Part shown: positions 39,799-61,395 of the stretch, one piece after another
Layout of the letters: every line of letters starts with the position of its first letter
Position numbering within the stretch: position 1 is the stretch's first letter
From: Aquamicrobium zhengzhouense
GTDB lineage: Bacteria; Pseudomonadota; Alphaproteobacteria; Rhizobiales; Rhizobiaceae
Direction: 5' to 3'
DNA length: 64,000 bases
Assembly: GCF_016124105.1 (NCBI RefSeq)
Contig: NZ_JADGMQ010000007.1
Location: forward strand, 124,001 to 188,000
Position numbers and translations under genes: made by a program
The notes under the pieces: generated by a model
The model's database searches: none
Seen by the model: only the letters and a program-made list of their open reading frames with translations
What the model was told of the DNA's origin: nothing

Positions 39799-39996
39799 CC
39801 CGCAAAAGAAGCGAAAAGTGCCTATGACCGCTACCAGCGATGGTTGCGGTCATTGTCTGGTTTCCAGATCGCGCCCGGTCCCAATAGCCCCTGCGCTTCG
39901 AGGGCTGTCGATGCTGCAACAGGAGCATCGGGCGATTATTCCAAACAGTCCAACGTGCAGTCATCGCGCTGACCGCTCAGATCGGCGCAGATAACG

Positions 39997-40021
39997 AAAA
40001 AGGCCGGGTAAACCCGACCTT
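39997..40021 (-). terminator. Rho-independent terminator of the cold-shock gene
   Basis: Read on the minus strand, AAGG-T-CGGGT pairs with ACCCG-G-CCTT around a 2-base loop with one mismatch, followed by TTTTCG. It lies about 64 bases after the cold-shock gene stop. Confidence 0.75.
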
Positions 40022-40084
40022 CCTCTAAACGCTTTAATGGTCAGTGCCAGTACATCCGTGGTCAAAGACCGGAAGCGCGATCAG

Positions 40085-40294
40085 TTAGGCAGCCTGAATA
40101 TTCTCGGCCGCAAACTTGCCATTGCGGTTGTCCTTCACCAGGTCAAAGCTGAGCTTCTGGCCTTCGACAAGGCCATGCATGCCTGCACGCTCGACAGCTG
40201 AGATGTGGACGAACACGTCACCGGCGCCACCATCCTGCTCGATGAAGCCAAAACCTTTGGTGGAGTTGAAGAACTTTACGGTTCCAGTATTCAT
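40085..40294 (-). CDS. Cold-shock protein (CspA family)
   Basis: 69-residue single cold-shock domain with both RNA-binding motifs, KGFGFIEQD (RNP1) and VFVHISAVE (RNP2). It acts as an RNA chaperone in the cytoplasm. The ATG is preceded by GAAAGGAAA. A long unassigned leader upstream could hold a temperature-responsive 5' UTR, as known for cspA genes. Confidence 0.95.
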
Positions 40295-41741: not shown

Positions 41742-41771
41742 TTGACACCCACGGCTCTTGTTTTTTATCAC
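41742..41771 (+). promoter_or_regulatory. Candidate promoter of the mesX operon
   Basis: TTGACA (41742-41747) and TATCAC (41766-41771) are separated by 18 bases, close to a housekeeping -35/-10 pair. They lie a few bases before the first paired region of the cobalamin riboswitch. Confidence 0.5.
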
Positions 41772-41777
41772 TGGGCC

Positions 41778-41937
41778 ACCAGGGTCCTTCGGGCACATGT
41801 CCGGAGGCTAAGAGGGAAGTCGGTGTGAGGCCGAGGCTGCCCCCGCACCTGTAAGCGGTGAGCTGATGTCCGATTGTCACTGGGTGTTTCCGGGGAGCGG
41901 ACGACGGCGAGGATCCGCGAGCCAGGAGACCTGCCTT
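41778..41937 (+). promoter_or_regulatory. Cobalamin (B12) riboswitch upstream of mesX
   Basis: Conserved blocks of the cobalamin aptamer appear in order: an AGGGTCC-containing 5' arm, GAGGGAAGTCGGTG, GGCTGCCCCCGCACCTGTAA (41835-41854), CACTGGG, and the B12 box AGCCAGGAGACCTGCC (41920-41935). It reads toward mesX. Downstream, a GCCGC-GTT-GCGGC hairpin (41983-41995) and CGCGGT near the ribosome site (about 42036-42041) could form competing structures, which suggests control of translation. Binding of cobalamin would be expected to turn the operon off, as for metE. Confidence 0.92.
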
Positions 41938-42045
41938 GGTGAATGTACGTCGACGGGAGGAGTGTCCCGGTGTCTTAGCAGGGCCGCGTTGCGGCTTGAC
42001 GCTGCTATGTGCCGGGCCCCCTTCCCCAACATATCGCGGTGAAGC

Positions 42046-43095
42046 ATGTCCCAGACCAAAAATCCGGTTGTGCCGTCAGGCCCGCAACCTCTCGATGGCC
42101 AGCACGCGGCCAATCAGGCCGACTTTGCGTTTCACATCGACAGCATCCGGTTCGATGAGAACTATCAGCCCGGCGACGCAACGCGCCTGACCACCAATTT
42201 TGCCAACCTTGCAAGGGGAGCGAACCGACGGGACAATTTGCGCAAAGCGCTGCGAATGATCGATAACCGGTTCAACGCCTTGGCGAGCTGGGACAATCCG
42301 CAAGGTGATCGCTATTCCGTCGAGATCGAAATCATCTCGGCGAAGTTGCAGATCGGCGGGGCTAGCTCGGCCGACGCCATTCCCCTGATCGAGATGCTCA
42401 ACACGACGATTGTGGATCGAAAGACCTCAAGACGCATAGAAGGCGTCGCGGGCAACAATTTCTCGTCCTACATTCGTGATTACGACTTCAGTGTCTTGCT
42501 GCCGTCTCATAACGCGAATGGTTCCGGGTTCAGCACACCTGCGGGCTTCGGAGACTTGCACGGCAATCTGTTCAAGTTGTTCGTGCGCTCCAGCGCGTAC
42601 AAACAGCGCTTTGCCAAGGCCCCGGTCATCTGCATCAGCGCATCCAGCAGCAGAACCTACAGCCGGACCGACAATCTGCATCCAATCCTTGGCTGGGAAT
42701 ACGTGCAGGATCAGCCGTCGGCGACGGACGAGTATTTCGCCAAGATGGGTCTCACTGTCCGCTTTTTCATGCCGCCGGATAGCGCAGCTCCGCTGGCGTT
42801 CTATTTCTCAGGCGACCTGCCAACCGACTACACCAATCTTGAGCTGACCAGCGTCATCAGCACGATGGAGACGTTCCAGAAGATCTATCGCCCCGAGATC
42901 TACAACGCCAACTCCTCCGCCGGGGCCTGCTATCAGCCAGACCTGAAGCATCAGGACTATTCCCTGACGCAGATCGTCTACGACCGCGAGGAGCGTAGCC
43001 GCCTTGGCGTCGAGCAGGGACGGTTCGCGGAAGAGCACTTCATAAGCCCCTACAAAAGCATTCTTGAGAAGTGGTCTTCCAGTTCCGCTCTCTGA
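42046..43095 (+). CDS. mesX: MesX (DUF1852), partner of methionine synthase MesD
   Basis: 349-residue soluble protein of the DUF1852 family, without signal peptide. Recognisable segments are ADFAFHIDSIRFDENYQP near the start, TRLTTNFANLARG, and the C-terminal EEHFISPYKSILEKWS. In Acinetobacter, DUF1852 (MesX) is needed together with MesD for oxygen-dependent, folate-independent methionine synthesis; its biochemical step is not established. It is the first gene under a cobalamin riboswitch and lies 26 bases before mesD. The ribosome site (GGTGAAG) is weak and close to the ATG, fitting control at translation. Confidence 0.92.
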   Translation: MSQTKNPVVPSGPQPLDGQHAANQADFAFHIDSIRFDENYQPGDATRLTTNFANLARGANRRDNLRKALRMIDNRFNALASWDNPQGDRYSVEIEIISAKLQIGGASSADAIPLIEMLNTTIVDRKTSRRIEGVAGNNFSSYIRDYDFSVLLPSHNANGSGFSTPAGFGDLHGNLFKLFVRSSAYKQRFAKAPVICISASSSRTYSRTDNLHPILGWEYVQDQPSATDEYFAKMGLTVRFFMPPDSAAPLAFYFSGDLPTDYTNLELTSVISTMETFQKIYRPEIYNANSSAGACYQPDLKHQDYSLTQIVYDREERSRLGVEQGRFAEEHFISPYKSILEKWSSSSAL

Positions 43096-43121
43096 CCAAC
43101 CGACGAACAAGGTCCTTCGCG

Positions 43122-44150
43122 ATGAATAAAATTTTGCCCACATCGACAGCAGGCAGCCTGCCCAAGCCTTCCTGGCTCGCGGAACCGGAAAAGCTCTGGT
43201 CGCCCTGGAAGCTGGAAGGTGAGGAACTGGCCGGTGGCAAGCGGGATGCTCTGCTATTGTCTCTTCACGATCAGCTGCATGCAGGAATAGACATCGTCAG
43301 CGATGGCGAGCAGACGCGTCAGCACTTCGTCACAACGTTTATCGAGCACCTCAGCGGCGTCGATTTCGAGAAGCGTGAAACCGTCAGAATCCGCAATCGC
43401 TACGACGCGAGCGTGCCCACAATTGTCGGCGAAGTGTCCCGCCAGAAGCCCGTCTTCGTGGAAGACGCCAAATTTCTGCGCCAGCATACGAAGCAACCGA
43501 TCAAATGGGCTCTGCCCGGCCCGATGACGATGATCGATACGCTCTATGACAGCCATTACAAAAGCCGCGAAAAGCTCGCCTGGGAGTTTGCCAAGATCCT
43601 CAACGAGGAAGCCAGGGAGCTCGAGGCGGCCGGGGTCGATATCATCCAGTTCGACGAGCCGGCGTTCAATGTCTTCTTTGATGAGGTGAATGACTGGGGC
43701 GTCGCCACTCTCGAACGGGCGATCGAAGGTCTCAAATGCGAGACGGCGGTCCACATTTGCTACGGCTACGGCATCAAGGCGAACACGGACTGGAAACAGA
43801 CGCTTGGGTCAGAGTGGCGGCAGTATGAGGAAAGTTTCCCCAAGCTGCAGAGATCCAAGATCGATCTGATCTCCCTGGAGTGCCACAACTCCCATGTGCC
43901 GATGGACCTGATCGAACTCATCCGTGGCAAGAAAGTCATGGTGGGCGCCATCGACGTTGCGAGCAAAACGGTCGAAACGCCGGAAGAGGTGGCAAATACG
44001 CTCCGAAACGCGCTTCGGTTCGTTGATGCGGACAAGCTTTGCCCCTGCACCAACTGTGGAATGGCACCGCTGCCACGCGATGTTGCAACTGGAAAGCTGA
44101 AAGCTCTGAGCGCGGGCGCAGAAATCGTCCGCCGAGAACTCGGGGCCTAG
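43122..44150 (+). CDS. mesD: Folate-independent methionine synthase MesD (core MetE-like)
   Basis: 342 residues, corresponding only to the C-terminal catalytic barrel of MetE (full MetE is about 750). It begins LPTSTAGSLPKPSWL, continues with DGEQTRQHF and WALPGPMTM, and keeps the zinc-binding set: His and Cys in VHICYG, Glu in ISLECHN, and Cys in CPCTNCGMAP. It lacks the N-terminal half that MetE uses to bind polyglutamyl folate. The methyl donor of MesD enzymes is unknown. The start at 43122 follows the mesX stop by 26 bases; a start at 43071 would overlap mesX. Confidence 0.93.
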   Translation: MNKILPTSTAGSLPKPSWLAEPEKLWSPWKLEGEELAGGKRDALLLSLHDQLHAGIDIVSDGEQTRQHFVTTFIEHLSGVDFEKRETVRIRNRYDASVPTIVGEVSRQKPVFVEDAKFLRQHTKQPIKWALPGPMTMIDTLYDSHYKSREKLAWEFAKILNEEARELEAAGVDIIQFDEPAFNVFFDEVNDWGVATLERAIEGLKCETAVHICYGYGIKANTDWKQTLGSEWRQYEESFPKLQRSKIDLISLECHNSHVPMDLIELIRGKKVMVGAIDVASKTVETPEEVANTLRNALRFVDADKLCPCTNCGMAPLPRDVATGKLKALSAGAEIVRRELGA

Positions 44151-44222
44151 CATCGGGCCACGTGATGTTGCGCGGCGTCGCTAATCGCCGCGCCGCATCG
44201 CGCCAGTCAAAAGGGGATCGAG

Positions 44223-44723
44223 ATGGGTCTTATGGGTCACCACTTCGACATCGTGGACCAGTCCACCTTTCGCAATGGCATGTCGCGGCTCGGCGCGGCA
44301 GTCAGCGTCGTCACGACGCGTTCCGCGAACCAGCGCTATGGCTTCACCGCTTCGGCAGTGTGCAGCGTGAGCGATACGCCGCCGACGTTGCTCGTGTGCA
44401 TCAATCGTTCCAGCTCGTGCTTCCCTGCCTTCGCAAACGCGCGTCATTTCTGCGTCAATACGCTGATGCCGGGTCAGGAGGACCTCTCAAGACATTTCGG
44501 TGGCAAGACGCCGATGGAAGAGCGTTTCGATTACGGCGACTGGACGGAAGGCCTCAATGGCGTCCCATTCCTCTCAACGGCTTCCGTGAGTTTCGAATGC
44601 GAACTGACGAATGCCGTGGATGAAGCGACACATCGCATCCTCTTTGGCCGGGTGATGAGAATTCGGGAAAACGAAGAGCAGGCGACGCTGCTCTATTGCT
44701 CTCGCCGTTATCTCAACGGTTAG
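44223..44723 (+). CDS. Flavin reductase-like FMN-binding protein
   Basis: 166-residue NAD(P)H:flavin oxidoreductase of the HpaC/flavin reductase-domain family. It contains FRNGMSRLGAAVSVVTTRSANQRYGFTASAVCSVSDTPPTLLVCINRSS, the usual FMN-binding core, then FCVNTLMPGQEDLSRHFGG. It lies 72 bases after mesD on the same strand and ends 13 bases from the convergent ORF. Reduced flavin could feed an oxygen-using step with MesX; that link is inferred from the operon and from the known oxygen need of MesD/MesX. Confidence 0.88.
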   Translation: MGLMGHHFDIVDQSTFRNGMSRLGAAVSVVTTRSANQRYGFTASAVCSVSDTPPTLLVCINRSSSCFPAFANARHFCVNTLMPGQEDLSRHFGGKTPMEERFDYGDWTEGLNGVPFLSTASVSFECELTNAVDEATHRILFGRVMRIRENEEQATLLYCSRRYLNG

Positions 44724-44736
44724 GTTGCCTGCTTCT

Positions 44737-45024
44737 TCATCGATCAGGCACGCCCCATTGAGCCTTGGCGTCCCCACCGTTCGCTACAGCAAGGAGCATC
44801 AGGCGCAATTGCTGCACGGATGGATGCAGCGACATCATCGAGCGGTCAATGACCTCGATCTGCCGGCGCGCAGCCGCCTCCAGACAGGCTTCGGATTGTG
44901 CCGAGATGAGCCAGTCGGCGAATACTTCCTCGGGCGGCGGCAGGGGGGAAGTAGTCGCCATCTTTGCGCTATCGCGACCTCGTCTTCCCACCGTGCGCAA
45001 ACCATCGCGTGGAGGAACAGTCAT
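44737..45024 (-). CDS. 95-residue ORF coupled to the Rieske oxygenase genes, unknown function
   Basis: It starts MTVPPRDGLRTVGRRG, with the ATG overlapping the gbcB-like stop as ATGA, so it is probably translated with that gene. The first 25 residues are basic and low-complexity. The rest (PPPEEVFADWLISAQSEACLEAAARRQIEVIDR... QQLRLMLLAVAN) is predicted to be two or three amphipathic helices. There is no signal peptide, cysteine motif or membrane segment. It could be a small accessory or regulatory subunit. No family recognised. Confidence 0.65.
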   Translation of the reverse strand: MTVPPRDGLRTVGRRGRDSAKMATTSPLPPPEEVFADWLISAQSEACLEAAARRQIEVIDRSMMSLHPSVQQLRLMLLAVANGGDAKAQWGVPDR

Positions 45025-46127
45025 GCGTCCACCTCGACCGGAGACAAGGGCCGGGAGCAGCAGGCGAGCACGTAGCCAGCTGAGATGTCCTGCTGGCTGA
45101 TGCCGCCATTGTGACGCATATCCACATTCCCGGAACGCTTCAAAACCCTGCACGTACCGCAAATGCCGGACTGGCATGCGGAAGGAATTCTCACACCTGC
45201 ATGACGCGCAGCTTCCAAGATCGTCTGGCCTGGCAGGCAATCCGCATCCTTGCCAGCGCCGAGGAATGTGACCGTAAGTCCGGACGAAGTTCGTTCGACG
45301 CCACTTTCCTCGACTTCCTTTTGTATTGGCTCAGCAAAGGAGGAAGCGCCAAAACTCTCCTGGTGGAAACGCCCCATATCAAATCCTTCCGACCTGACAA
45401 TCGAGCTTACTGCGGCCATGAACGGTTCGGGGCCGCAGCAGAATATCTCCCGGCTCATGAAGTCGGGGGCGAAGAGAGCGAATTTGTGTCGATCGATGCG
45501 GCCCGTAATTCCGCCCCAAGGCGACGCCCTCGATCGTATTTCAGGTAAGAGGCAAAGCGTTAGGTTCGGCATGCGGCAGGCTAGCATTTCGAGCTCCTCG
45601 CGGAAGATAAAGTCTTCCGGCCGCCGTGACGAGTTCACGAAAGTAACGTCTGCGGCGGGATCGCAATCGGACAGCCAGCGCAGCATGGACATCATCGGCG
45701 TGATGCCGGACCCGGCGGATATGAAGAGATATTTCTTTGCCGGATGCCGCATCAGCGTGAAATGACCGTTCGGCCCGTAGGCGCGAATGCGCGAACCGGG
45801 CCGAATGCTCTCGAACATCCAGCGCGTCCCGATCGAGTTCGGCTGCGCCTTGACAGTGATCGAGATGGAGTAGGGACGCGACGGCGATGACGAGACCGTA
45901 TATGTCCGGTGCAAATCGCCGTCCTTTGCGCGCAATTCGACGGTTATGAACTGGCCGGGCAGGTAGCGGAACCACCCGCCGTTCTCGACCACAAAGGTGA
46001 AGGTCTTCACATGCGGTGCCTCATCGACAACGCTGGTGCAGACCAGCATCTGGCGGGTGGCGTTCCACGGTTTGATCTCGTCTAATGGAAGCGGGACTGG
46101 CACCGTACCTGTCATCATCAGCGACAT
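45021..46127 (-). CDS. Rieske oxygenase reductase component, GbcB-like
   Basis: 368-residue three-domain reductase. An FAD domain (HRTYTVSSSP, the RxYS-type motif) leads into an NAD-binding domain (FISAGSGITPMMSMLRWL, IFCCGPEPFMAAV). A C-terminal plant-type [2Fe-2S] ferredoxin domain has ACQSGICGTC and a fourth Cys in YVLACCSRP. It passes electrons from NADH to the Rieske oxygenase encoded 14 bases upstream. The arrangement matches GbcB of glycine betaine demethylation. Confidence 0.9.
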   Translation of the reverse strand: MSLMMTGTVPVPLPLDEIKPWNATRQMLVCTSVVDEAPHVKTFTFVVENGGWFRYLPGQFITVELRAKDGDLHRTYTVSSSPSRPYSISITVKAQPNSIGTRWMFESIRPGSRIRAYGPNGHFTLMRHPAKKYLFISAGSGITPMMSMLRWLSDCDPAADVTFVNSSRRPEDFIFREELEMLACRMPNLTLCLLPEIRSRASPWGGITGRIDRHKFALFAPDFMSREIFCCGPEPFMAAVSSIVRSEGFDMGRFHQESFGASSFAEPIQKEVEESGVERTSSGLTVTFLGAGKDADCLPGQTILEAARHAGVRIPSACQSGICGTCRVLKRSGNVDMRHNGGISQQDISAGYVLACCSRPLSPVEVDA

Positions 46128-46141
46128 GGCATTCGCTCCGT

Positions 46142-47389
46142 TCAGGCGACAGATCGCAGGGCCGGCCGGCCGCGGTCAGACAAGCGTTTTTCCATGAAAC
46201 CAGCGTACCAGTCGATGAACTGCATCACGCCCCCTTCATGTATCGGCGAATAAGGGCCTGGTTCGTAGGCCGGCGACTGGATGCCTCTCGCATTGTCCTC
46301 AACGATCCTGCGATCCTGATCGTTGGTCTCGGTCCAAACATGAATCAGTTCTTCGAGACGATAGTCGATGCCCTCCACCGCATCCTTGTGCACCAGCCAT
46401 TTTGTGGTGACGGCGGTCTCTGTAGCGCTGAGCGGCAGGACGCGGAACGTAACGGCGTGATCCGACAGAACATGGTTCCATGTCGTCGGATAGTGATAAA
46501 GCAACAGCGAGCCGATGCGGTCCATGTTGACGTTGTCCGATAGCCGTATCTGCACGGCCTTGCGGCCCGAGATCGTGTAGCTGATCGCATCCCGCAGGAG
46601 TGGCACACGCGTAGCCCGATACTGCCCGTTCTCGTCCATCGTGAATGCACTCGGCAGGCCCGCGGCCTCGCATTTTTGCCAATGCGCTGCGATTTCAGGA
46701 TCGTCCTGCGCGCCGGATACGCCCGTGACGTTCGGCGCTTCGGGGAAGGTCTTGCAGAGCTCTGGATGGTTCCCCGCGCAGTGATAGCACTCGCGGTTGT
46801 TCTCCCAGACCAGTTTCCAGTTGCCCTTCTCGATGATCGTGGATTCGTAGGCGACCTTGGCATCGCGAAGACGGTGCGGCAGGAAGAACGGCTCCATTAT
46901 TGCGCGGAATGGCGCGAAGTCCATCGGCTCTTCGGCCAGCGAAATGAAGATGTAACCACCAGCCGTCTCGCAAGCGACTGACTTCAGACCGAAAGCTGAC
47001 GTATCGAACCCCTCGCCCATCTGACGAGCGAATAGGAGCGAACCGTCCAGATCATAGGTCCACTGGTGGTAGGGGCAAACCAGTTTTGCGGCGGACCCCC
47101 TGTGCTCCAGGCATACCCGGCTGCCGCGATGGCGGCAGGAATTATGCATTGCGCGTATTGCACCGTCTTCTCCGCGCACAATGATGACCGAGTAGGCCCC
47201 GACCTGAACCGTGAAATAGTTTCCGGCGCTGGGAATTTCGCAGTCGTGACCCGCGAACAGCCAGTCCTTGTACCAGATTTGCTCCAGGTCCTGCTGATGG
47301 TACGCAGGGTCGATATAAAATGGCTGATCCAGGCTGTAGCCAGGCTTCCGGTTCCGGAGCCGCGATACCATTTCTTCGTGTATGTCCAT
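46142..47389 (-). CDS. Rieske-type oxygenase alpha subunit, GbcA-like (betaine demethylase family)
   Basis: 415 residues. The Rieske [2Fe-2S] site is Cys85-x-His87 and Cys105-x2-His108 (CRHRG...CPYHQW). The mononuclear iron region is ENNRECYHCAGNHPELC, with two likely histidine ligands, and an Asp is expected in the C-terminal part. This pattern is characteristic of GbcA/stachydrine demethylases, which remove one N-methyl group from a betaine and release formaldehyde. The ATG at 47389 has AGGAC upstream within a hairpin. A cobalamin riboswitch precedes it. The exact substrate is not provable from sequence; glycine betaine is the leading candidate. Confidence 0.88.
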   Translation of the reverse strand: MDIHEEMVSRLRNRKPGYSLDQPFYIDPAYHQQDLEQIWYKDWLFAGHDCEIPSAGNYFTVQVGAYSVIIVRGEDGAIRAMHNSCRHRGSRVCLEHRGSAAKLVCPYHQWTYDLDGSLLFARQMGEGFDTSAFGLKSVACETAGGYIFISLAEEPMDFAPFRAIMEPFFLPHRLRDAKVAYESTIIEKGNWKLVWENNRECYHCAGNHPELCKTFPEAPNVTGVSGAQDDPEIAAHWQKCEAAGLPSAFTMDENGQYRATRVPLLRDAISYTISGRKAVQIRLSDNVNMDRIGSLLLYHYPTTWNHVLSDHAVTFRVLPLSATETAVTTKWLVHKDAVEGIDYRLEELIHVWTETNDQDRRIVEDNARGIQSPAYEPGPYSPIHEGGVMQFIDWYAGFMEKRLSDRGRPALRSVA

Positions 47390-47393
47390 GTCC

Positions 47394-47415
47394 GTCCTCG
47401 CATTCCAACAAGGAC
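47394..47415 (-). promoter_or_regulatory. Hairpin covering the gbcA-like ribosome binding site
   Basis: On the minus strand GTCCT (47415-47411) can pair with AGGAC (47398-47394), which is the probable Shine-Dalgarno sequence 4 bases before the ATG. It could serve as the translational off-state of the upstream riboswitch. Confidence 0.35.
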
Positions 47416-47516
47416 TGAACTGGTGGCTGGGGTGGAGGAGTTGGACCGGCACGCGTCAACAGACGCCGCCCGAGCGCTCTGCCACTTGACCGCCCACCGC
47501 GATCAGTCGTTTCAGA

Positions 47517-47706
47517 TGTCCGAGGCTGGTTTCCGGGCTCCGAAGCTGGCCTTGTTGGCCTCCCCAACACCTTCCCAGGCTTGCGCCAAGTGGTGTCACG
47601 TCAGGTCTCTCGCTTCGCTACCGTTGCGGGGGCAGCGCCGGCTTTCCTCTGTCGAGGGCACCGGCTTCCCAATTCTCCTCCCGACTGTTCGGCGGAAGGC
47701 ACCTTG
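47517..47706 (-). promoter_or_regulatory. Cobalamin (B12) riboswitch upstream of the gbcA-like operon
   Basis: Minus-strand reading gives AAGGTGCC as the 5' arm, GGGAAGCCGGTGC (47670-47658), GCGCTGCCCCCGCAACGGTA (47638-47619), ACCACTTGGC, GGGAAGG, and the B12 box AGCCCGGAAACCAGCC (47539-47524). All conserved cobalamin aptamer blocks are in order and facing the Rieske gene, about 125 bases upstream of its ATG. This makes the oxygenase operon B12-responsive, opposite in direction to the mesX riboswitch. Confidence 0.9.
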
Positions 47707-47747
47707 AACATGCTCATCAGATCACACGTTCAATCGCTTGGTGAGCG

Positions 47748-47780
47748 AGAAAGCGACATGCCACGCTCAAGAAAGCGACA
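47748..47780. promoter_or_regulatory. Direct repeats between the divergent gbcA-like and fbp-type operons
   Basis: AGAAAGCGACA occurs at 47748-47758 and 47770-47780, a spacing of 22 bases (two helical turns). It lies in the promoter region shared by the minus-strand riboswitch transcript and the plus-strand ABC operon. A regulator binding site is possible. Confidence 0.3.
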
Positions 47781-47920
47781 GATACAACGTCTCTGCCAGA
47801 ACGCTGATCGCCCCTAATTGGCATCGTCGCTCCCGCGCCCCCACCACTGTCAGCAGCTTGTCACCGGGCCGTCATGTAGGCGCGATAGATCGCGGCGATA
47901 TCGAAGACACCTGGATACAA

Positions 47921-49003
47921 ATGTCTGGCACCGTCACACAAACGACAACCGTCGCGACCCGTGGGCTGCATCTTTCTTTCGGGAAGACGCCGATCCTGCG
48001 TGGGATAGACATTTCACTCAGCGCCGGGGAAACGCTGGCGCTGCTTGGGCCGTCAGGGTGCGGGAAGACGACGCTCCTGCGCCTGATCGCGGGCCTCCTG
48101 TCACCCACTTCGGGCGAGGTCTGGAGCGACGGGCGCATGGTTGCAGGACCGGGCGTTTTCGTTCCACCGGAAAAGCGCGGTCTTGGCATGGTCTTCCAGG
48201 ATTATGCGCTGTGGCCGCATATGACGGTTGCGGAGAACGTTGCTTTTCCGTTGGAACTCGCCGGCGTTTCAAAGCCGGATCGGGCCCGACGGACCAGGGA
48301 AGCTCTTGACCGGGTGGGGCTTGCCGGGTTGGCGGATCGCAGTCCCGACGCGCTATCGGGCGGCCAGCAGCAACGCGTTGCCATAGCCCGCGCCATTGTC
48401 GGAGAGCCGAAGATTGTTCTTTTCGACGAGCCTCTCTCGAACCTCGACCGCGAATTGCGGGAAACCATGGTCGATGAACTCGGCTCATTGATCCGCGGAC
48501 TGGGTCTCACAGCAGTCTACGTCACTCATGACCAGTCAGAGGCTCTGACATTGGCCGACCATGTGGCGGTCATGGATAGCGGCATGGTCGCGCAGCTCGC
48601 CGCACCCCACACGCTGGTTGAACAGCCCGCAACTGCCAAGGTCGCGGAGTTCCTGCGCCTTGGCTCGGTCCTGCCTTTGACCCGTCAGGGTGAAGATTGG
48701 CTTCTGGGCGGCGTTTCCCTTGGTCCAATCAAGGGGCCGGAATCTGATGCGGCGGAATTGCTTTTGACGCCACGCGCAATGCGCATCGTCGATGCAGGCG
48801 ATGCACCGCTTACCGGGGAAGTGTCTGCGGTCCACTATCGAGACGCTGCCTATGCCGTAGCCGTCCGGCTCAACAACAAGGACGGACATTCCGTTCAGCT
48901 TTCAAGCAAAATCCGACCGCGCATTGGGGAGCGCCTCGGGTTGGAGATCATTTCCGATCGCCTCCACTGGTTCCCTGCACGGGCTCAGGCCCTGACTTCT
49001 TGA
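47921..49003 (+). CDS. Fbp-type ABC transporter ATPase
   Basis: 360-residue ATPase with Walker A GPSGCGKTT (residues 43-51), Q-loop FQDYALWPHMTVAENV, signature LSGGQQQRVAIARAI, Walker [13 protein letters not shown] and a C-terminal TOBE-like region. FbpC/PotA-type proteins of this length serve iron(III), thiamine, or 2-aminoethylphosphonate importers. The ATG at 47921 is chosen because conservation begins only at residue 11; an in-frame start at 47738 would add 61 unrelated residues. It overlaps a TTG alternative start of the next gene. Confidence 0.88.
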   Translation: MSGTVTQTTTVATRGLHLSFGKTPILRGIDISLSAGETLALLGPSGCGKTTLLRLIAGLLSPTSGEVWSDGRMVAGPGVFVPPEKRGLGMVFQDYALWPHMTVAENVAFPLELAGVSKPDRARRTREALDRVGLAGLADRSPDALSGGQQQRVAIARAIVGEPKIVLFDEPLSNLDRELRETMVDELGSLIRGLGLTAVYVTHDQSEALTLADHVAVMDSGMVAQLAAPHTLVEQPATAKVAEFLRLGSVLPLTRQGEDWLLGGVSLGPIKGPESDAAELLLTPRAMRIVDAGDAPLTGEVSAVHYRDAAYAVAVRLNNKDGHSVQLSSKIRPRIGERLGLEIISDRLHWFPARAQALTS

Positions 49004-49011
49004 GGTATAAT

Positions 49012-49965
49012 ATGTTGAAGTCCGTCTTCCGGGTTGCTTTCTGTGCCGCAGCTCTTGTTTCTGCAAGCGCTGCCAGCGCCGAAGTCACTGTCTACACCGC
49101 TGGCCCGGCGGCTTTGATCGAGAAGCTTGCCGCGGGCTTCACGGCTGAAACCGGCATCAAGGTCAATTTCTTCCAGGCCACGACCGGCAAAGTCATGGCG
49201 CGTATCGAGGCCGAAGCTGCGAACCCGGTCGTTGACGTCCTGATCTCCGCTTCATGGGACACAGCCACCGATTTTGCCAAGCGTGACTGGCTTCTTCCTT
49301 ACGCCAGCCCGAACGCGGATAAGGTGCCGGACTTCCTCAAGACCGACACGGCTGTTGCGCAGGGCGTGTCGGCTCTCGCAATCGCGTGGAACCCGTCCTC
49401 GGGCACCCCGAAACCGTCAGAATGGTCCGATCTTGCAAAGCCGGAATACAAGGATCTGGTAAACCTGCCTGATCCGGCGCAGTCCGGGGCGACCTTTGAG
49501 CTGGTCGCGGCGCTTTCAGCCTCACAAGGCTGGGCCCTGTTTGACAGCCTCTCCGCCAACGGCGCGATCGTCGCCGGCGCCAATGCTGAGGCCCTGAACC
49601 CGGTCCTGCAGGGTGCAAAAGCAGCCGTTTTCGGCGCGGTCGACTACATCTCATTTAACGGCAAGGCCAAGGGAGAGAACATTGAGGTCATCTTCCCCGC
49701 ATCAGGCACTGTCATCGCGCCGCGACCGGTCATGATCCTCAACTGGTCCAAGAAGCAGGACGAGGCGAAGAAGTTCGTTGACTACGTGCTGTCAGACGAC
49801 GGGCAGGCTATCGTGGCATCACAGAACTTGATGCCGGCTCGCGCCGACATCAAGGCAGAGCGTCCGCTGATTGCTGACCTCAAGATCCTACCCGTCGATG
49901 CGGAAGCCGTTTATGGCAAGCGCGCCGAGACCCTGGCGGACTTCGCGAAGATTTTCGCAAAGTAA
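49012..49965 (+). CDS. Fbp-type periplasmic binding protein (family 1)
   Basis: 317 residues with a signal peptide (KSVFRVAFCAAALVSASAASA). The mature part begins EVTVYTAGPAALIEKLAAGFTAETGIKVNFFQ, the AfuA/FbpA/PhnS-like pattern. The tyrosine pair that binds iron in FbpA is not evident (the conserved YY region is absent), which favours an organic or phosphonate ligand over iron. The ATG at 49012 has GAGG upstream. Substrate remains open. Confidence 0.86.
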   Translation: MLKSVFRVAFCAAALVSASAASAEVTVYTAGPAALIEKLAAGFTAETGIKVNFFQATTGKVMARIEAEAANPVVDVLISASWDTATDFAKRDWLLPYASPNADKVPDFLKTDTAVAQGVSALAIAWNPSSGTPKPSEWSDLAKPEYKDLVNLPDPAQSGATFELVAALSASQGWALFDSLSANGAIVAGANAEALNPVLQGAKAAVFGAVDYISFNGKAKGENIEVIFPASGTVIAPRPVMILNWSKKQDEAKKFVDYVLSDDGQAIVASQNLMPARADIKAERPLIADLKILPVDAEAVYGKRAETLADFAKIFAK

Positions 49966-49979
49966 AGGAAGGTCTGGAC

Positions 49980-51659
49980 GTGGCACGCCTGCGCGGGGGG
50001 CTGAACCCCGTAACAATCGTGGCGATGACGGGGCTTGTCTTCGTCGTCGTCATACCCTTTGTATTCATTGTAGCGCAGGCGATTTTTCCGCATCTTGGGC
50101 GCGGCTCTCTGGCCGCGCCATTCTCCGCAATGGTCGGGGCTCTGTCAGACCCGAGGCTGATCGGAATGACCATGAACACGCTCCTGTTGGGAGCGCTCGT
50201 CGTGGGCCTTTCGGCCTTGATCGCCGTCCCGCTGGCAGTCCTTCGCGGCTTGTTCAGGGTGCCACTGGCGGTGCTCTGGGACGTGCTTTTTCTCATCCCT
50301 TTCATGATCCCGCCTTACATCGCGACACTAGGGTGGATCATGACCCTGCAGCCGCGTGGCTATCTCACTCAGCTTTTTGGCGTTGATCTCGCGACCTTCC
50401 TGTTCTCGGTCCCGGGGATCGCCTTCGTCATGTCCCTCAACACGTTTCCCGTCGTCTATTTTGCGGTATCACGGACAATCGAGACGGTGGGCTCGCGCTA
50501 CGCCGATGTCGGGCGCGTGTTTGGAGCGAGCCCTGCGAAGGCGTTCTGGCGCATAACGCTTCCTCTGGCGACGCCAGGTCTTGTCGCCAGCCTCCTCCTT
50601 GTCTTTGCCATGGCTATCGAAGAGTACGGCACACCTGCAGCGCTGGGAACGCGAGCCGGCTTTGAGGTTCTCGTCACGGCAATCGACTTGCGCGTCTCTG
50701 ACTGGCCGATCGACCTTCCCGGGGCGGCGATCCTGTCGCTGGTTCTCGTTATCCTCTCATTCGCAGCTTTCCTGCTGCAACGATGGATTCTGACCCGCAG
50801 ATCGTACCAGACGACGACTGGCAAGCCACAGGCAGGCGCAAGGCGCGAACTTGGCCGCTGGCGCTATCCCGTCATTGCGCTCTTTGCCCTGGTTGCATTC
50901 GTTGCAGCAGCTATTCCCATCCTCGCCATTCTCGCAACCGCCTTGTCCCGAACGATTTCGGGTGGTCTGTCGCTCGCGAATCTGGGTCTCGACAATTTCG
51001 CTGCGATCCTCGGTGATACATCGGGCGCTCTGCGCGCTCTGGGCACAAGCTTGGGGCTTGGCATTGCAGCCGCCATCACGACGGGGTTCCTCGGTGCGCT
51101 GTCGGCCTACACAATCGTGAAGACCAAGGTGCGGGGGCGCGGATTGCTGGATGTTCTGACGATCCTGCCGAATGCATTGCCGGGCATCGTCGTCGCGGTC
51201 GGTCTGATCCTTGCCTGGAATCAGCCCTGGCTTCCGATCACCCCCTACAACACGACCCTCATCCTGCTTCTTGCCTATTGCTGTATCCTGTTGCCGCAGC
51301 CTGTCCGTTATGCAACCGCAGCCTTCCACCAGATTGGTGATAATCTTGAGGCGGCAGCCCGCGTCGCTGGTGCAAGCCCGCTGATCGTTTTCCGACGGAT
51401 CATGCTACCGCTGATCATGCCTGGAATGATCGCCTCGATGCTGCTTGTTTTCGCCGTTGCAACACGCGAACTCGTTGCCTCGATCGTAATTGCGCCAGTC
51501 GGCGTCTCAACGATCTCAACCTATATCTGGCGACAGTTCGAACAAGGATCCGTGGGGCAGGGAATGGCGATGGCATTCCTCACGATCCTCATTTCGACCG
51601 CGTTCCCTCTGATGGTGTTGCAGCTCATGCGCCGTCGCAAAGGCTCGCCGATGCTCTGA
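49980..51659 (+). CDS. Fbp-type ABC transporter permease with two fused modules
   Basis: 559-residue inner-membrane protein with about twelve helices in two halves, each carrying an EAA loop (SRYADVGRVFGASPAKAFWRITLPL and DNLEAAARVAGASPLIVFRRIMLPL). This is the FbpB/ThiP single-chain permease layout. It starts with GTG at 49980 preceded by AAGGAAGG, 14 bases after the binding-protein gene. It ends the operon. Confidence 0.9.
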   Translation: MARLRGGLNPVTIVAMTGLVFVVVIPFVFIVAQAIFPHLGRGSLAAPFSAMVGALSDPRLIGMTMNTLLLGALVVGLSALIAVPLAVLRGLFRVPLAVLWDVLFLIPFMIPPYIATLGWIMTLQPRGYLTQLFGVDLATFLFSVPGIAFVMSLNTFPVVYFAVSRTIETVGSRYADVGRVFGASPAKAFWRITLPLATPGLVASLLLVFAMAIEEYGTPAALGTRAGFEVLVTAIDLRVSDWPIDLPGAAILSLVLVILSFAAFLLQRWILTRRSYQTTTGKPQAGARRELGRWRYPVIALFALVAFVAAAIPILAILATALSRTISGGLSLANLGLDNFAAILGDTSGALRALGTSLGLGIAAAITTGFLGALSAYTIVKTKVRGRGLLDVLTILPNALPGIVVAVGLILAWNQPWLPITPYNTTLILLLAYCCILLPQPVRYATAAFHQIGDNLEAAARVAGASPLIVFRRIMLPLIMPGMIASMLLVFAVATRELVASIVIAPVGVSTISTYIWRQFEQGSVGQGMAMAFLTILISTAFPLMVLQLMRRRKGSPML

Positions 51660-54995: not shown

Positions 54996-55868
54996 ATGAG
55001 CGAGCAAATCCAAGACTACCGTTCCATCTGGACCGGCCTGCGCGACACCATTTTTGAGCAGGGCTTCGTCGACGTCAACGGCATTAACACCCGCTATGCC
55101 CGTTCAGGCACACGCGGAAAGCCGGTGATCGTCATGCTTCATGGCACGGCGGGTCATTGGGAAGCGTTCTCGTCGAACTTCAAGGCGCACAGCGCAGACT
55201 TCGACATTCTCGCCCTCGACATGATCGGTTGCGGTTTCACCGACAAGACCGACCATGCACTCGAGATCAAGCACTATATGGAGCACGTGCTCGGCTTCCT
55301 CGATGTCATGGGCGTCGAGAAGGCACACTTCATGGGCTGCTCGCTTGGCGCGTGGATCTCGGCAGCGATTGCAAGCCGTCACCCGGAGCGCGTTGGCAAG
55401 CTGGTGCTCCTCTCCGCATCGGGCTACTTCTCAAGCGCCGAGAACCGCGGCCGCATCATCTCCCAGCGCACCAAGGCGGTAGATGATCCGTCCTGGGAGA
55501 ACATCAAGGCGATCTTCAACAAGCTGCTTGCCGAGGAAAAGAGCCGCGTCAACGATCTCGTGGCGCACCGCCAGGCCATCTACCGCATGCCGGAGATGAA
55601 GCAGGGCATGCTCAACATTCTCGCCCTGCAGGATCCGGAGATCCGCGAGCGCAACCTGCTCAAGGACGACGAGTGGCGCGCGATCAAGGCCGAGGCCCTC
55701 GTCGTTGGTTCGCTGGCAGATGCTGACGAATATCTACGCACCGCGCAGGTTGTTTCGAAGCTGATCCCGAACGCCCGTTACGTCGAGATGGAAGGCGTTG
55801 GCCACTGGCCGCAGTGGGAAGATCCGGAGACCTTCAACGCACTCAGCGTCGAATTTCTTCGCGGCTAA
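54996..55868 (+). CDS. mhpC: 2-Hydroxy-6-ketonona-2,4-dienedioate hydrolase-like (MhpC family)
   Basis: 290-residue alpha/beta hydrolase. It has the oxyanion segment MLHGTAGHWEAF, nucleophile elbow GCSLGA with the catalytic Ser, and a late catalytic His in VEGVGHWPQWE. It should cleave the meta-cleavage product to 2-hydroxypenta-2,4-dienoate plus succinate or fumarate. It lies 14 bases after mhpB with AAGGAAA upstream of the ATG and is followed by a strong terminator. Confidence 0.9.
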   Translation: MSEQIQDYRSIWTGLRDTIFEQGFVDVNGINTRYARSGTRGKPVIVMLHGTAGHWEAFSSNFKAHSADFDILALDMIGCGFTDKTDHALEIKHYMEHVLGFLDVMGVEKAHFMGCSLGAWISAAIASRHPERVGKLVLLSASGYFSSAENRGRIISQRTKAVDDPSWENIKAIFNKLLAEEKSRVNDLVAHRQAIYRMPEMKQGMLNILALQDPEIRERNLLKDDEWRAIKAEALVVGSLADADEYLRTAQVVSKLIPNARYVEMEGVGHWPQWEDPETFNALSVEFLRG

Positions 55869-55916
55869 GCGTTTGCGGGGCTGATAAATCGGTCTCGCGA
55901 GCCTTCGAGGTTGAAG

Positions 55917-55948
55917 AACCCCGTCACGTTGTGGCGGGGTTTCTTTTT
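55917..55948 (+). terminator. Rho-independent terminator after mhpC
   Basis: AACCCCGTCAC pairs with GTGGCGGGGTT (one G-U pair) around a 3-base loop and is followed by TTCTTTTT. It ends the tctB-tctA-mhpB-mhpC unit. Confidence 0.88.
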
Positions 55949-56040
55949 GGACTTGCTGTGGGGCAGCATGGGCGGGATGCGCTTGTTTGGGCGCTCATCC
56001 CCACGACCAATCGCGCCCTCCCAGCACCGCTCGGTTTTGG

Positions 56041-56829
56041 CTAAAGTTCGTACTTCGCCAATTCCGCCGTGATGGCTTCAACAGCTTCGGTGATCTGCTG
56101 GGTCATTTGAGCGAGATTGTTGCCGACAAAGCGGAAGGAGGGCCCGCCGAGCGCAATGCAATATGCGAGGCGACCGCCAGAAAATATCGGTGCCGCAACA
56201 CCGCTGACGCCCTCATCTCGCTCTTCGTTTGAAAGCGCGTAGCCCTGCCGTCGGATCCGCACGAGTTCGTTCTCAAGCAGTTTGCGCTCCGTGATCGTGT
56301 TGGGCGTATAGGCGACGGGTGTGAAGAGCTTGAACATCTCCTCAAGCTCGCGCGGGCTGGAGAATGCGAGCATGACCTTGGCTCCTGCCGTGGCTGGCCA
56401 TGGCAGGGTTGTGTTGCGCAAATAGGGGATGCGCACATGATGGCGGCAATCAATGCGGTCGACCGGCACGAGTTCCGGCCCGATCAATTCGCGCAAAGAC
56501 GTGAATTCGCCGAAATTCTCCGCCAGACGCTCCAGATGAGGCCTCGCTATCCGCATCACCGTCGTCGTGCTCTTGGCGACACGCGCCAGCTCCACGATCT
56601 TGGCGGAAAGCTGGAAGCCGCCGTCGCGGTCCTCGATGATGAGGCCGTAATGTTTCAGACTGTTGAAGTAGCGGTAGATCGTCGATCGCGGCATCTCCAG
56701 ATGCTGCGCGAGAGCGGTCGGTGTCCAGACCGGATTGGCCGCATCGAATGCAAGCAGAATCTCGATTGCCCGGTCCGCCGTCGAATTGGCGCTCACCGCC
56801 TTGTCAACCGACTTAGTCTTGCCCGCCAT
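56041..56829 (-). CDS. IclR-family transcriptional regulator
   Basis: 262 residues. The N-terminal winged helix (about residues 18-80) has ALAQHLEMPRSTIYRYFNSLKHYGLI. The C-terminal IclR effector domain includes ATAGAKVMLAF and GVSGVAAPIFSGGRLAYCIALGG. It sits between the two arms of the mhp locus and is divergent from tctC, with a perfect dyad in the gap. It is the likely specific regulator (MhpR-type function) of hydroxyphenylpropionate catabolism. Confidence 0.92.
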   Translation of the reverse strand: MAGKTKSVDKAVSANSTADRAIEILLAFDAANPVWTPTALAQHLEMPRSTIYRYFNSLKHYGLIIEDRDGGFQLSAKIVELARVAKSTTTVMRIARPHLERLAENFGEFTSLRELIGPELVPVDRIDCRHHVRIPYLRNTTLPWPATAGAKVMLAFSSPRELEEMFKLFTPVAYTPNTITERKLLENELVRIRRQGYALSNEERDEGVSGVAAPIFSGGRLAYCIALGGPSFRFVGNNLAQMTQQITEAVEAITAELAKYEL

Positions 56830-56941
56830 TCTTGCTCCTCGCTCAAATCCCGAAAAAACTCATATCAAATTGCGGGTATCACCAGCAAGTTCTCTTGTAA
56901 TTAGGCGCTGCTTCGCATATTGCCAGCAAAATATCTCTCTT

Positions 56942-56962
56942 TGTGATAAGTGATGTATCACA
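56942..56962. promoter_or_regulatory. Candidate IclR operator upstream of tctC
   Basis: TGTGATA-AGTGATG-TATCACA has perfect 7-bp arms and a 7-base spacer. It lies 27 bases before the tctC start and in the gap to the iclR gene. The half-site TATCACA recurs upstream of mhpA at about 58081-58087, hinting at a shared regulon. Confidence 0.55.
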
Positions 56963-56989
56963 GAATGAGGACAACTTGGAGGAGTCGTC

Positions 56990-57964
56990 GTGACCAATAG
57001 CCTTTCTTTCACCCGCCGTGCCCTGCTGGGCGCTGCAGTTGCTGTTTCCGCACTCATGGGCTCCGCGCAGGCTGGGGAAAAATACCCCTCGGGCCCCGTC
57101 AGCATCGTCGTCCCGTTCTCCGCTGGCGGTACCACGGACGCAATCGCCCGTCTCGTAGCAGAAGAACTGCAGACCCGCTGGGGCTCCGCGGTTGTGGTTG
57201 AGAATAAGCCCGGTGCCGGCGGCGTCATCGCCACGCAGGCCGTAGCCCGTGCCAAGCCGGATGGTCGCCAGATCCTGTTCAACGACATCGGAATCGCCCT
57301 GAACGAAGTCACCATGCCGAGCCGGCCATATGATCTTGCCAAGGATCTGCGCCCGGTTGTGACCGTTGGCGAATGGCCGCTTGCATTCCTTGCCGGCTCC
57401 AGCACCGGCATCAAGACGATGTCCGACCTGATTGAACGCGCCAAGACCGAAAGCCTTGCATTCGGTACGTTTGGCCCGGCTTCCTCGCCGCATCTGGCTG
57501 CCGAGCTGCTAAAGTCGGTCGCCGGCATTGACCTGAAGATCGTTCACTTCAAGGGCGTCAGCCCGGTTATCCAGGCGATGGCATCGGGCGAGGTTCAGCT
57601 CGGCGTCTTCGGTGCAGGTGCTGCTGCCGGTGAAGTCGCCAAGGGCACGATGAACCTGCTGGCTCTTGACTACAAGTCGCCGCTGGTTCCGGAGGCTCCG
57701 ACCTTTGCCGAGGCTGGCGTTGAAGGTCTGCGCGCAATTGCGTGGTGGGGCGTGTTCGTTCAGAGCGAGACGCCGGACGAAATCGTCAACGAGATCAACG
57801 CGGCTGTCAACGAGGCGCTTGGCTCGGAGCGTGTCGTTAATTACCTCGACACCAACGGTTACACCTCGGTTGGCGGGGAGCCGGCAGCATTGCAGCAGCG
57901 CGTCGATGAGGCGATCAACCTCTGGGGTCCCCTGGTTGAGAAGGCTGGCATCGCCGCCAAGTAA
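56990..57964 (+). CDS. tctC: Tripartite tricarboxylate transporter binding protein (TctC/Bug family)
   Basis: 324 residues from a GTG with GGAGGAG upstream. A signal peptide (twin Arg in FTRRALLGAAVAVSALMGSAQA, possibly Tat-like) precedes the mature Bug domain (YPSGPVSIVVPFSAGGTTDAIARLV, then ENKPGAGGVIATQAVARAKPDG). It should deliver its ligand to TctA/TctB encoded upstream of iclR. It is transcribed separately from mhpA because a terminator follows it. Confidence 0.92.
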   Translation: MTNSLSFTRRALLGAAVAVSALMGSAQAGEKYPSGPVSIVVPFSAGGTTDAIARLVAEELQTRWGSAVVVENKPGAGGVIATQAVARAKPDGRQILFNDIGIALNEVTMPSRPYDLAKDLRPVVTVGEWPLAFLAGSSTGIKTMSDLIERAKTESLAFGTFGPASSPHLAAELLKSVAGIDLKIVHFKGVSPVIQAMASGEVQLGVFGAGAAAGEVAKGTMNLLALDYKSPLVPEAPTFAEAGVEGLRAIAWWGVFVQSETPDEIVNEINAAVNEALGSERVVNYLDTNGYTSVGGEPAALQQRVDEAINLWGPLVEKAGIAAK

Positions 57965-57991
57965 TCCGCTTTTCACACCATACGATATGCG

Positions 57992-58022
57992 AAAGGCCGT
58001 CCGGTTTCGGGCGGCCTTTTCG
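57992..58022 (+). terminator. Rho-independent terminator after tctC
   Basis: AAAGGCCGTCC pairs with GGGCGGCCTTT (one G-U pair), with a 6-base loop, then TTTTCGC. Confidence 0.75.
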
Positions 58023-58131
58023 CATTTGGGGAAGTCATCAAAAAAACGAGACTTTTGTTATTGCATTTCGGGATTGGCTTTATCACAAAGCGGAAAACGA
58101 ATTGTGAGCGACAGCTCGTACAGATCGGGAG

Positions 58132-59769
58132 ATGACCATGGCCCAAAGTGAATTCGACGCGGACGTCATCATCGTCGGCGCTGGCCCAGCAGGCACGACC
58201 CTTGCAAACCTGCTTGGAACCTACGGCGTCAGGACGCTGGTGCTGGAGCGCGAGCCGGACATCATCGACTACCCGCGTGCTGTCGGCATGGACGACGAGG
58301 CGCTACGCGCCTTCCAGACGACGGGCCTGGCAGAGCCGCTCCTGAAGGACATGATCCAGAACACGCTGCTGCGCTACCATCATTCCAACGGCAAGATGTT
58401 TGCCGAGGTAGGGCCAAAGGCGAAGCCGTTCGGCTGGCCGCGCCGCAACCTCTTCATCCAGCCATTGTCGGAAAAGGTCATCCGCTCGGGCATTGAACGG
58501 TTCCCGCACGTCAAGGTTCTGACCGGGCACGAGTTAGAATCCTTTACCGAGGATGACGCGGGTGTAACCCTCAGCGTCAAAACCGCTGACGGCAACAAGA
58601 CGCTGCGCGCGCCTTACGTCGTTGGCTGCGACGGCGGCAAGTCAACCGTCCGCAAGGGGCTCGGTATCGCGCTTCTTGGCGACACCCATCCGTGGCGCTG
58701 GCTGGTTGTCGACCTCAAGAACGACGACCGCTTCGAACCATATTCGGCGATCTATTGCGATCCGAAGAACCCGTTCATCGTCATCGATCTGCCCTACGGT
58801 CATCGCCGCTTTGAATTCCGCCTTCGCCCCGAAGACACGGATGAGAAGATGTCAGACCCGGATGAGATTGCTCGCCTCCTGCGCAAGCGCCTTGGGCCGG
58901 ATGAGAAGCCGGAGGTCATCCGCGCGCGCATCTACACCCACCACTCACGCATTGCCGCTTCCTTCCGCAAGGGCCGGATCTTCATCGCTGGTGATGCCGC
59001 GCATTTGCAGCCGCCGTTCTTCGGCCAAGGTCTCAACTCGGGCCTCCGCGACGTGATGAACCTGTCGTGGAAGCTGGCCATGGTTGTCCAGGGCAAGGCC
59101 GAGCCAAAAATCCTCGACAGCTACGAGCAGGAGCGCAAGCACCACGCCGAACAGATGGTGAAATTCGCGACCGGCATCGGCAAGTTCTACGCCCCCTACT
59201 CCCACTTCACCGAATACTTCCGCAAGGCGTTCTTCTGGTGCGTCCATCGCCTGCCGTCGCTGCGCGACTACGTGCTGCAGATGAAGTTCAAGCCGATGCC
59301 GTTCTATGAACAGGGTGTGGTTGATCACTCCAACGCGGGCGGCAAGTCGATGGTCGGTCGTATGATCGTCCAGCCGAAAGTCGCGGACGCTGAAGATCGT
59401 CCGATGCTGCTCGACGACGCGATCGGCAAGGGCTTTGCTGTCATCGGCATCAATGAGGACCCTGCAGCCCAGCTCTCGACTGAGGATCGCGCGTACCTGC
59501 AGTCGATTGGCTCGATCGTCCAGATTAACCGCTCGCGGCGCGGCAAGGTGGGCTGGAGCGCACATCCGGAGACACTGGTGCTCGACGACCTCGACGGCGT
59601 CTTCCGCGACATGCTGTTGAAGCACCCGAACCAGAAGTTCTATATCCTGCGCCCGGATCGCTACGTCTTCGCGGTGTGCAACCGTCACGAACTGGCCGGT
59701 GCTGTTTCACGCCTGCGCGCTCAGCTTGGCGAACAGCGCCAGGAGCCGAACCTCATCGCTGCGGAGTAA
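58132..59769 (+). CDS. mhpA: 3-(3-Hydroxyphenyl)propionate hydroxylase-like FAD monooxygenase
   Basis: 545-residue flavoprotein monooxygenase. The FAD-binding GAGPAG is at residues 16-21, the middle motif is VVGCDGGKSTVRK, and GRIFIAGDAAHLQPPFFGQGLNSGLRDVMNL is near residue 285. The length and C-terminal domain agree with MhpA (about 550). It converts 3-(3-hydroxyphenyl)propionate or 3-hydroxycinnamate to the 2,3-dihydroxy compound using NADH and O2. The start is the ATG at 58132 or 58138. It leads the operon mhpA-mhpD-aldolase-ALDH. Confidence 0.92.
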   Translation: MTMAQSEFDADVIIVGAGPAGTTLANLLGTYGVRTLVLEREPDIIDYPRAVGMDDEALRAFQTTGLAEPLLKDMIQNTLLRYHHSNGKMFAEVGPKAKPFGWPRRNLFIQPLSEKVIRSGIERFPHVKVLTGHELESFTEDDAGVTLSVKTADGNKTLRAPYVVGCDGGKSTVRKGLGIALLGDTHPWRWLVVDLKNDDRFEPYSAIYCDPKNPFIVIDLPYGHRRFEFRLRPEDTDEKMSDPDEIARLLRKRLGPDEKPEVIRARIYTHHSRIAASFRKGRIFIAGDAAHLQPPFFGQGLNSGLRDVMNLSWKLAMVVQGKAEPKILDSYEQERKHHAEQMVKFATGIGKFYAPYSHFTEYFRKAFFWCVHRLPSLRDYVLQMKFKPMPFYEQGVVDHSNAGGKSMVGRMIVQPKVADAEDRPMLLDDAIGKGFAVIGINEDPAAQLSTEDRAYLQSIGSIVQINRSRRGKVGWSAHPETLVLDDLDGVFRDMLLKHPNQKFYILRPDRYVFAVCNRHELAGAVSRLRAQLGEQRQEPNLIAAE

Positions 59770-59773
59770 GACC

Positions 59774-61361: not shown

Positions 61362-61395
61362 GGGCGGCTGACTTTCTTTTTCAAGCGAGAACCAC

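Follow-up and report, generated by a model that had tools for sequence, protein, structure and literature searches.

Cobalamin (B12) riboswitches are known from B12-repressed isozymes, namely metE for MetH and nrdAB for NrdJ, and nrdAB and the genes of TonB/B12 importers are among the targets that this riboswitch usually represses. A different use of B12 is found in Ruegeria pomeroyi, where MtgC and MtgD are needed for both methionine synthesis and glycine betaine demethylation, as reported in excerpts of Mausz et al. (2025, PMC12478193). According to excerpts of Price et al. (2021, PMC7857596), MesD and MesX are functional in Escherichia coli, and the authors did not know what serves MesX as methyl donor. 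Among Rieske oxygenases, the group Vb betaine demethylases have an Asn where CntA has an aromatic residue (position 203), which tells them apart from group Va (PMC7948474, in part). Here we describe a locus of Aquamicrobium zhengzhouense in which a mes operon and a Rieske oxygenase operon converge, each preceded by a cobalamin riboswitch. The locus lies in a stretch of 64,000 nucleotides (nt), hereafter the window (RefSeq assembly GCF_016124105.1, contig NZ_JADGMQ010000007.1, positions 124,001 to 188,000).

Two convergent operons behind cobalamin riboswitches

Both aptamers are full-length (positions 1-189 of the RF00174 model) and far exceed the gathering score of 31.5 in a cmscan search with Rfam 15. 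The first (41765..41952, + strand, 109.3 bits) precedes mesX (42046..43095, +; PF08908, 573.6 bits), which encodes the putative oxygenase partner of MesD. Next are mesD (43122..44150, +; PF01717), encoding the folate-independent core methionine synthase, and a flavin reductase gene (44223..44723, +; PF01613, 135.5 bits), whose best NCBIfam match is RutF, below cut-off. With 699.4 bits against a cut-off of 392 for NF006589 and MesX encoded next to it, MesD belongs to its family. The second aptamer (47507..47721, - strand, 104.4 bits) precedes a gene for a Rieske oxygenase (46142..47389, -; Rieske and Ring_hydroxyl_A domains) that is predicted to be a group Vb betaine N-demethylase. Its partner, a GbcB-like ferredoxin-flavin reductase (FAD_binding_6, NAD_binding_1 and Fer2 domains), is encoded at 45021..46127 (-). 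The listed open reading frame (ORF) of the oxygenase, 46142-47452, opens at GTG; the ATG at 47389, which we picked by eye, is the likelier start. A sequence-only reading of the window had proposed two complete, opposed cobalamin riboswitches and a mesX-mesD-flavin reductase operon that converges with a Rieske operon, and the covariance search and the family models confirm both points.

The same reading called the Rieske pair GbcAB-like. The resemblance to GbcA and GbcB stands, but both proteins fall below the NCBIfam equivalog cut-offs, with 519.1 bits against 670 for the oxygenase (NF058607) and 372.6 bits against 500 for the reductase (NF058606), and the strict label GbcAB was dropped for this reason. 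The nearest sequences in the PDB to the oxygenase are 3n0q and 4qup/3vca (E about 1e-158). We take 4qup/3vca to be Stc2, a proline betaine demethylase. The oxygenase carries the group Vb signature, with Asn219, the bridging Glu221, His224 and His229 (numbering from GTG; positions mapped by eye via the E-C-x-H-C spacing), and these residues are invariant in 117 of 117 relatives. Given the group Vb Asn, the substrate is probably a carboxylate betaine. Across the 121 genomes sampled from the window's family, Rieske orthologues share 62-100% identity, while the next paralogues share 53-56%. Two genomes encode a further Rieske oxygenase, distantly related to the first (34-35% identity), directly downstream of the riboswitched pair (L175:12489-13625 and L014:10797-11972), and both of these proteins are also below the GbcA cut-off.

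The Rieske leader and the corrinoid pathway across genomes

We surveyed two samples. The named sample consists of the best 80 loci encoding Rieske relatives from a scan of genome contigs, with deeper relatives falling outside it, and the family sample consists of the 121 genomes mentioned above, 43 of which have a Rieske orthologue. A profile built from four riboswitches of the window's genome detects a riboswitch immediately before the Rieske gene at 66 of the 80 named loci and upstream of 28 of the 43 family orthologues. The Rfam model confirmed all 39 positives submitted to it (the window, 27 other family loci and 11 named loci) and detected a cobalamin riboswitch in none of the 29 negative loci submitted; the remaining 55 named positives are calls of the profile. 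Complete, high-scoring Rieske-leader aptamers occur across many genera in the Rfam results. The sequence-only reading would have counted a neighbourhood unique to this genome against its idea. The riboswitched Rieske pair is not unique, but the exact MesXD/Rieske neighbourhood was seen in 2 of the 121 family genomes.

In the same genomes, we searched for MTTB (PF06253), the family of the corrinoid methyltransferases MttB and MtgB. The riboswitch and MTTB occur together in 27 family genomes and are both missing in 14, with one genome each having only the riboswitch or only MTTB. In the named sample (79 of the best 80 genomes), 65 genomes have both, 12 have neither, two have only MTTB and none has only the riboswitch. 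The two samples combined give 122 rows (92 both, 1 riboswitch only, 3 MTTB only, 26 neither), so that riboswitch and MTTB agree in 118 of 122, and 92 of the 93 riboswitch-bearing rows with a searched genome carry MTTB. Dropping five identical proteins from species present in both samples leaves 117 rows (89, 1, 3 and 24 in the same order), for which Fisher's test, which ignores relatedness, gives 1.3e-20. Orthologues of the corrinoid protein MtgC (80-100% identity) were found in 53 of 80 genomes checked, and these are exactly the MTTB-positive ones. Two additional weak MtgC matches (35-36% identity) among these 80 genomes are probably other B12-binding proteins.

The Rieske gene by itself is not positively linked to MTTB, which occurs in 28 of the 43 family genomes that have a Rieske orthologue and in 58 of the 78 that lack one. 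We rejected plain co-occurrence of the two genes; the link lies with the riboswitch leader. It could be argued that this link merely reflects ancestry or general B12 status, such that lineages losing mtg genes lost B12 use and riboswitches as well, with no functional tie. Indeed, a single Agrobacterium/Rhizobium clade provides 12 of the 24 rows with neither trait (identical proteins removed). However, on the Rieske tree, each of the two traits changes 11-12 times, and independent pairs on supported branches show several joint changes and none in opposite directions: with MTTB as pivot (n=7), a mean of 6.3 pairs agree, 0 oppose and 0.7 show no difference, and with the riboswitch as pivot (n=8), the corresponding means are 6.1, 0 and 1.9. 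Moreover, leader-less genomes are not B12-free. The NrdJ model exceeds its cut-off in 75 of 80 genomes tested (80 of the 122), including, by our reading of the result table, 25 of 29 that lack the leader, and each of the 15 family genomes with a leader-less Rieske gene carries a cobalamin riboswitch at another site. On these grounds, we rejected a general loss of B12 use as the sole cause of the link, and we regard an explanation by ancestry or B12 status as improbable.

The promoter side of the leader also speaks against such an explanation. Upstream of the Rieske riboswitch in the window is a direct repeat, TGTCGCTTTCT, present twice, 22 bp apart (47748..47780, -), which we noticed by reading the sequence. 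Paired TGTCGY words, with a spacing of 20-23 bp (mostly 21 bp) and at most 600 nt upstream of the Rieske gene, occur in 96 of 117 loci, as compared with 7 of 3164 control stretches. The pair is present in 71 of 90 riboswitch-bearing loci, and lies upstream of the riboswitch in all 71. It is also kept in 25 of 27 leader-less loci, which means that in most of these the promoter side stays and the riboswitch is missing. The tandem TGTCGY is a candidate site for an activator. An AraC/DJ-1-type regulator is encoded near the Rieske gene in one locus (L043), with a relative in another (L006).

A proposed replacement for a shared corrinoid complex

The window's genome encodes the B12-dependent counterpart that an isozyme relationship presupposes: mtgB, mtgC, mtgD, mtgE, ramA and DUF1638 form one cluster (stretch L147), and a second, distant MTTB gene occurs elsewhere. 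Similar clusters exist in other genomes. Out of 20 MTTB regions examined, 14 have the MTTB gene together with MtgC and DUF1638, and often also MtgD (a pterin methyltransferase), an activator of the RACo/RamA type, MtgE and a MetF-like protein; a few have a betaine-type ATP-binding cassette (ABC) transporter (ProV/OpuAC-type) nearby. NCBIfam classifies MtgE as a betaine-homocysteine methyltransferase, and it is annotated Bmt. In the window's genome, whose assembly is 99.98% complete, no MetH exceeds the cut-off; the sole matches of the MetH model are the genes for MtgC, MtgE and MtgD, all of them under the threshold. Similarly, no full MetE exceeds the cut-off, with the MetE model matching only MesD and giving one weak partial match. 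The B12-dependent methionine synthase of this genome thus appears to be a split MtgCDE that shares MtgC and MtgD with the betaine demethylase. With this gene content, a lack of B12 should abolish methionine synthesis and betaine demethylation by these proteins together. Classical MetH can occur in other genomes with a riboswitched Rieske gene (e.g., L012 and L022), and we therefore propose a double replacement for the window's genome only.

We consider it likely that the locus provides a set of B12-free substitutes for MtgBCDE, the dual-function corrinoid complex whose genes lie in another part of this genome. With ample cobalamin, MtgC-cobalamin would act as methyl carrier: MtgB would charge it with a methyl group taken from glycine betaine or some related betaine, MtgD would swap the methyl group between MtgC-cobalamin and tetrahydrofolate, and MtgE would hand it to homocysteine, with both riboswitches keeping the mes and Rieske operons silent. 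Under cobalamin shortage, MtgBCDE would fail in its two jobs and both leaders would open. MesX and MesD would then make methionine with the help of reduced flavin and O2, and the Rieske oxygenase and its reductase would demethylate betaine oxidatively, releasing formaldehyde. We infer that B12 represses both operons, that the substrate is a carboxylate betaine, that the Rieske enzyme is used when B12 is short and that this use affects fitness.

The sequence-only reading had offered two interpretations, and only one has fared well. The agreement of riboswitch and MTTB reported above gives good comparative support to the first, in which the Rieske route takes over from a corrinoid-dependent betaine demethylase in the absence of B12. 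The other interpretation was a single pathway, in which the Rieske enzyme provides C1 units (formaldehyde from betaine) for methionine synthesis by MesXD. The two operons are adjacent and convergent, and both are behind cobalamin riboswitches, here and in the nearest relative in the family sample (G062, 89%), and a methyl donor for MesX is just what excerpts of PMC7857596 leave unnamed. Yet MesX is found in only 5 of the 121 family genomes, as against 43 with a Rieske orthologue, and no MesX or MesD at ≥50% identity is encoded at the best 80 named Rieske loci (flanks up to 7 kb). In three loci (L020, L045 and G033), the convergent operon is a riboswitched metE in place of mesXD, and MesD and MesX work in E. 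coli without this Rieske enzyme (PMC7857596, in part). Betaine methyl feeding MesXD was accordingly rejected as a general reason for the pairing, and we find this interpretation very unlikely.

A variant of the replacement proposal retains its logic with another substrate, in that the Rieske enzyme would stand in for a member of the MttB family that works with MtgC on a betaine other than glycine betaine, e.g., proline betaine. Consistent with this variant, the presumed Stc2 structures are among the nearest relatives of the oxygenase, many genomes have several MTTB genes, and the GbcA cut-off is not reached. On the other hand, several riboswitch-bearing genomes have a single MTTB gene, which is in the mtg cluster, in some cases beside a ProV/OpuAC-type transporter. 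We think of this variant as possible, but hold it to be the less probable choice of substrate.

Several observations weigh against the proposed replacement of MtgBCDE. Besides the score of the oxygenase below the GbcA cut-off, MTTB is a broad family, and the substrate of the counterpart is unproven. The sign test that takes relatedness into account gives a median p of only 0.03 (range 0.016-0.063). One genome has the riboswitch but neither MTTB nor MtgC (G094), and three have MTTB and MtgC but no riboswitch (G102, Rhizobium sp. CSW-27 (L061) and Ciceribacter lividus (L063)). The Rieske orthologue is missing from 58 of 86 MTTB-positive family genomes. The TGTCGY pair is not general to mtg genes, as it occurs in 4 of the 20 loci with MTTB regions, and only in L165 is it apparently just upstream of an mtgB-type gene. 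Finally, no intrinsic terminator pattern lies between aptamer and gene at either leader of the window, and the folding energies of the leaders are no better than those of shuffled sequences. Because of these last two results, translational or Rho-dependent control is our guess for both leaders.

That no expression platform emerged from the terminator and promoter scan or from folding would also fit riboswitches that activate rather than repress, or that are vestigial. Against this, the aptamers are complete and high-scoring in many genera, and the other two full-length riboswitches of the window's genome precede nrdAB, on the same contig about 120 kb away, and, on another contig, a gene for a TonB receptor followed by genes of a B12-type ABC importer, both of them targets of a kind that is usually repressed. 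Activating or vestigial riboswitches therefore seem scarcely credible to us.

Neighbourhoods and significance

Some relatives place further riboswitched genes at the locus. The gene order in G062 is riboswitch-nrdAB, riboswitch-Rieske-reductase and a second Rieske gene (34%), followed by the convergent flavin reductase-mesD-mesX-riboswitch operon. Upstream of mesX, a cobalamin riboswitch is found for 4 of the 5 MesX genes in the family sample. The best 80 named loci encode NrdA (5), NrdB (5), MetE (2), MetH (2), CobF (4), BtuC (2) and BtuD (2). For NrdA, NrdB, MetE and MetH, one representative each was checked and exceeds the NCBIfam cut-off; the CobF label is from NCBIfam, and the BtuC and BtuD labels reflect best matches or likeness below cut-off. 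Since NrdA, NrdB and MetE neighbours occur in few of these loci, such islands are a minority. On a third contig of the window's genome (L005/L186, contig C29, about 126000-129000), a second nrdB is followed by a truncated riboswitch (40.3 bits) that resembles the Rieske leader, with an insertion element (integrase core domain) alongside. This arrangement is a probable relic of an nrdB-riboswitch-Rieske island like the one in G062.

Taking these neighbourhoods together with the survey, we lean towards the view that two O2-dependent, riboswitch-gated enzymes match one corrinoid complex with two jobs. The riboswitch would be a leader module that can be removed from its place between the Rieske gene and a conserved promoter site; it would be kept along with the corrinoid route and repeatedly lost without it. 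In some genomes, it would be part of a compact B12-independence island comprising nrdAB, the Rieske pair and metE or mesXD, each riboswitched.

If the proposed replacement is correct, many Rhizobiales of soil and plants would break down betaine by one of two routes according to B12: a corrinoid route that conserves the methyl group, or an oxygenase that burns it as formaldehyde. Osmolyte turnover, methionine supply and O2 demand would be tied to B12 availability, and the presence or absence of the leader would be a genome-only marker of the betaine route in use. The locus would also offer a context for work on MesX, given that Price et al. (2021) did not know the source of its methyl group.

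Divergent from the Rieske operon are genes of an ABC importer (47738-51659, +), encoding an ATPase, a solute-binding protein and a two-domain permease; the best NCBIfam match of the ATPase is PhnT2 (2-aminoethylphosphonate), below cut-off. An ar35 RNA, which belongs to an alphaproteobacterial small RNA family in Rfam, is located at 39993-40123 (-, 73.8 bits). ORFs with alpha/beta hydrolase, FAD monooxygenase, HpcH/HpaI aldolase and aldehyde dehydrogenase domains, together with an IclR regulator (54996-62841, +), look like a catabolic cluster for aromatic compounds.

Comparison with known systems

Part of the proposal has a precedent. The Discussion of PMC12478193 raises the possibility that cells produce core-MetE homologues under cobalamin limitation only, an idea that anticipates the mes side; that text has a single instance of the word riboswitch and a single one of Rieske, both within the reference list. 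Both words are absent from the main text of Price et al. (PMC7857596), and excerpts of PMC5948670 and PMC8123684 do not mention a link between cobalamin riboswitches and Rieske enzymes. Among the titles and abstract openings listed for the open-licence literature, none connects cobalamin riboswitches with Rieske oxygenases or betaine oxygenases. Rodionov et al., in J Biol Chem in 2003, reportedly described dioxygenase-like and ferredoxin-like genes, ardX-frdX, under control of a B12 element. If ardX-frdX are the genes studied here, the bare link of riboswitch and Rieske gene may be older, with only its explanation being new.

The individual parts of the locus each have a close counterpart. As in the MesD/MesX methionine synthase of PMC7857596 (seen in part), both proteins are encoded together with a nearby flavin reductase, but here a cobalamin riboswitch precedes mesX. 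The Rieske pair shares with GbcAB and Stc2 of group Vb its domain layout, a reductase partner, the group Vb Asn, the bridging Glu and the His-His ligands; unlike GbcAB, it is below the NCBIfam GbcA and GbcB cut-offs and lies behind a riboswitch. The modules of MtgBCDE known from R. pomeroyi (PMC12478193, in part) are clustered in the window's genome as well, again with no MetH match over cut-off. With respect to regulation, the locus would follow the same logic, and uses the same aptamer family, as the B12-repressed isozymes metE and nrdAB, whose riboswitched genes directly adjoin the Rieske operon in a few relatives. It differs from them in that the controlled genes encode a Rieske betaine-type demethylase and MesXD, and in that the B12-dependent counterpart is a shared corrinoid complex rather than a stand-alone enzyme.

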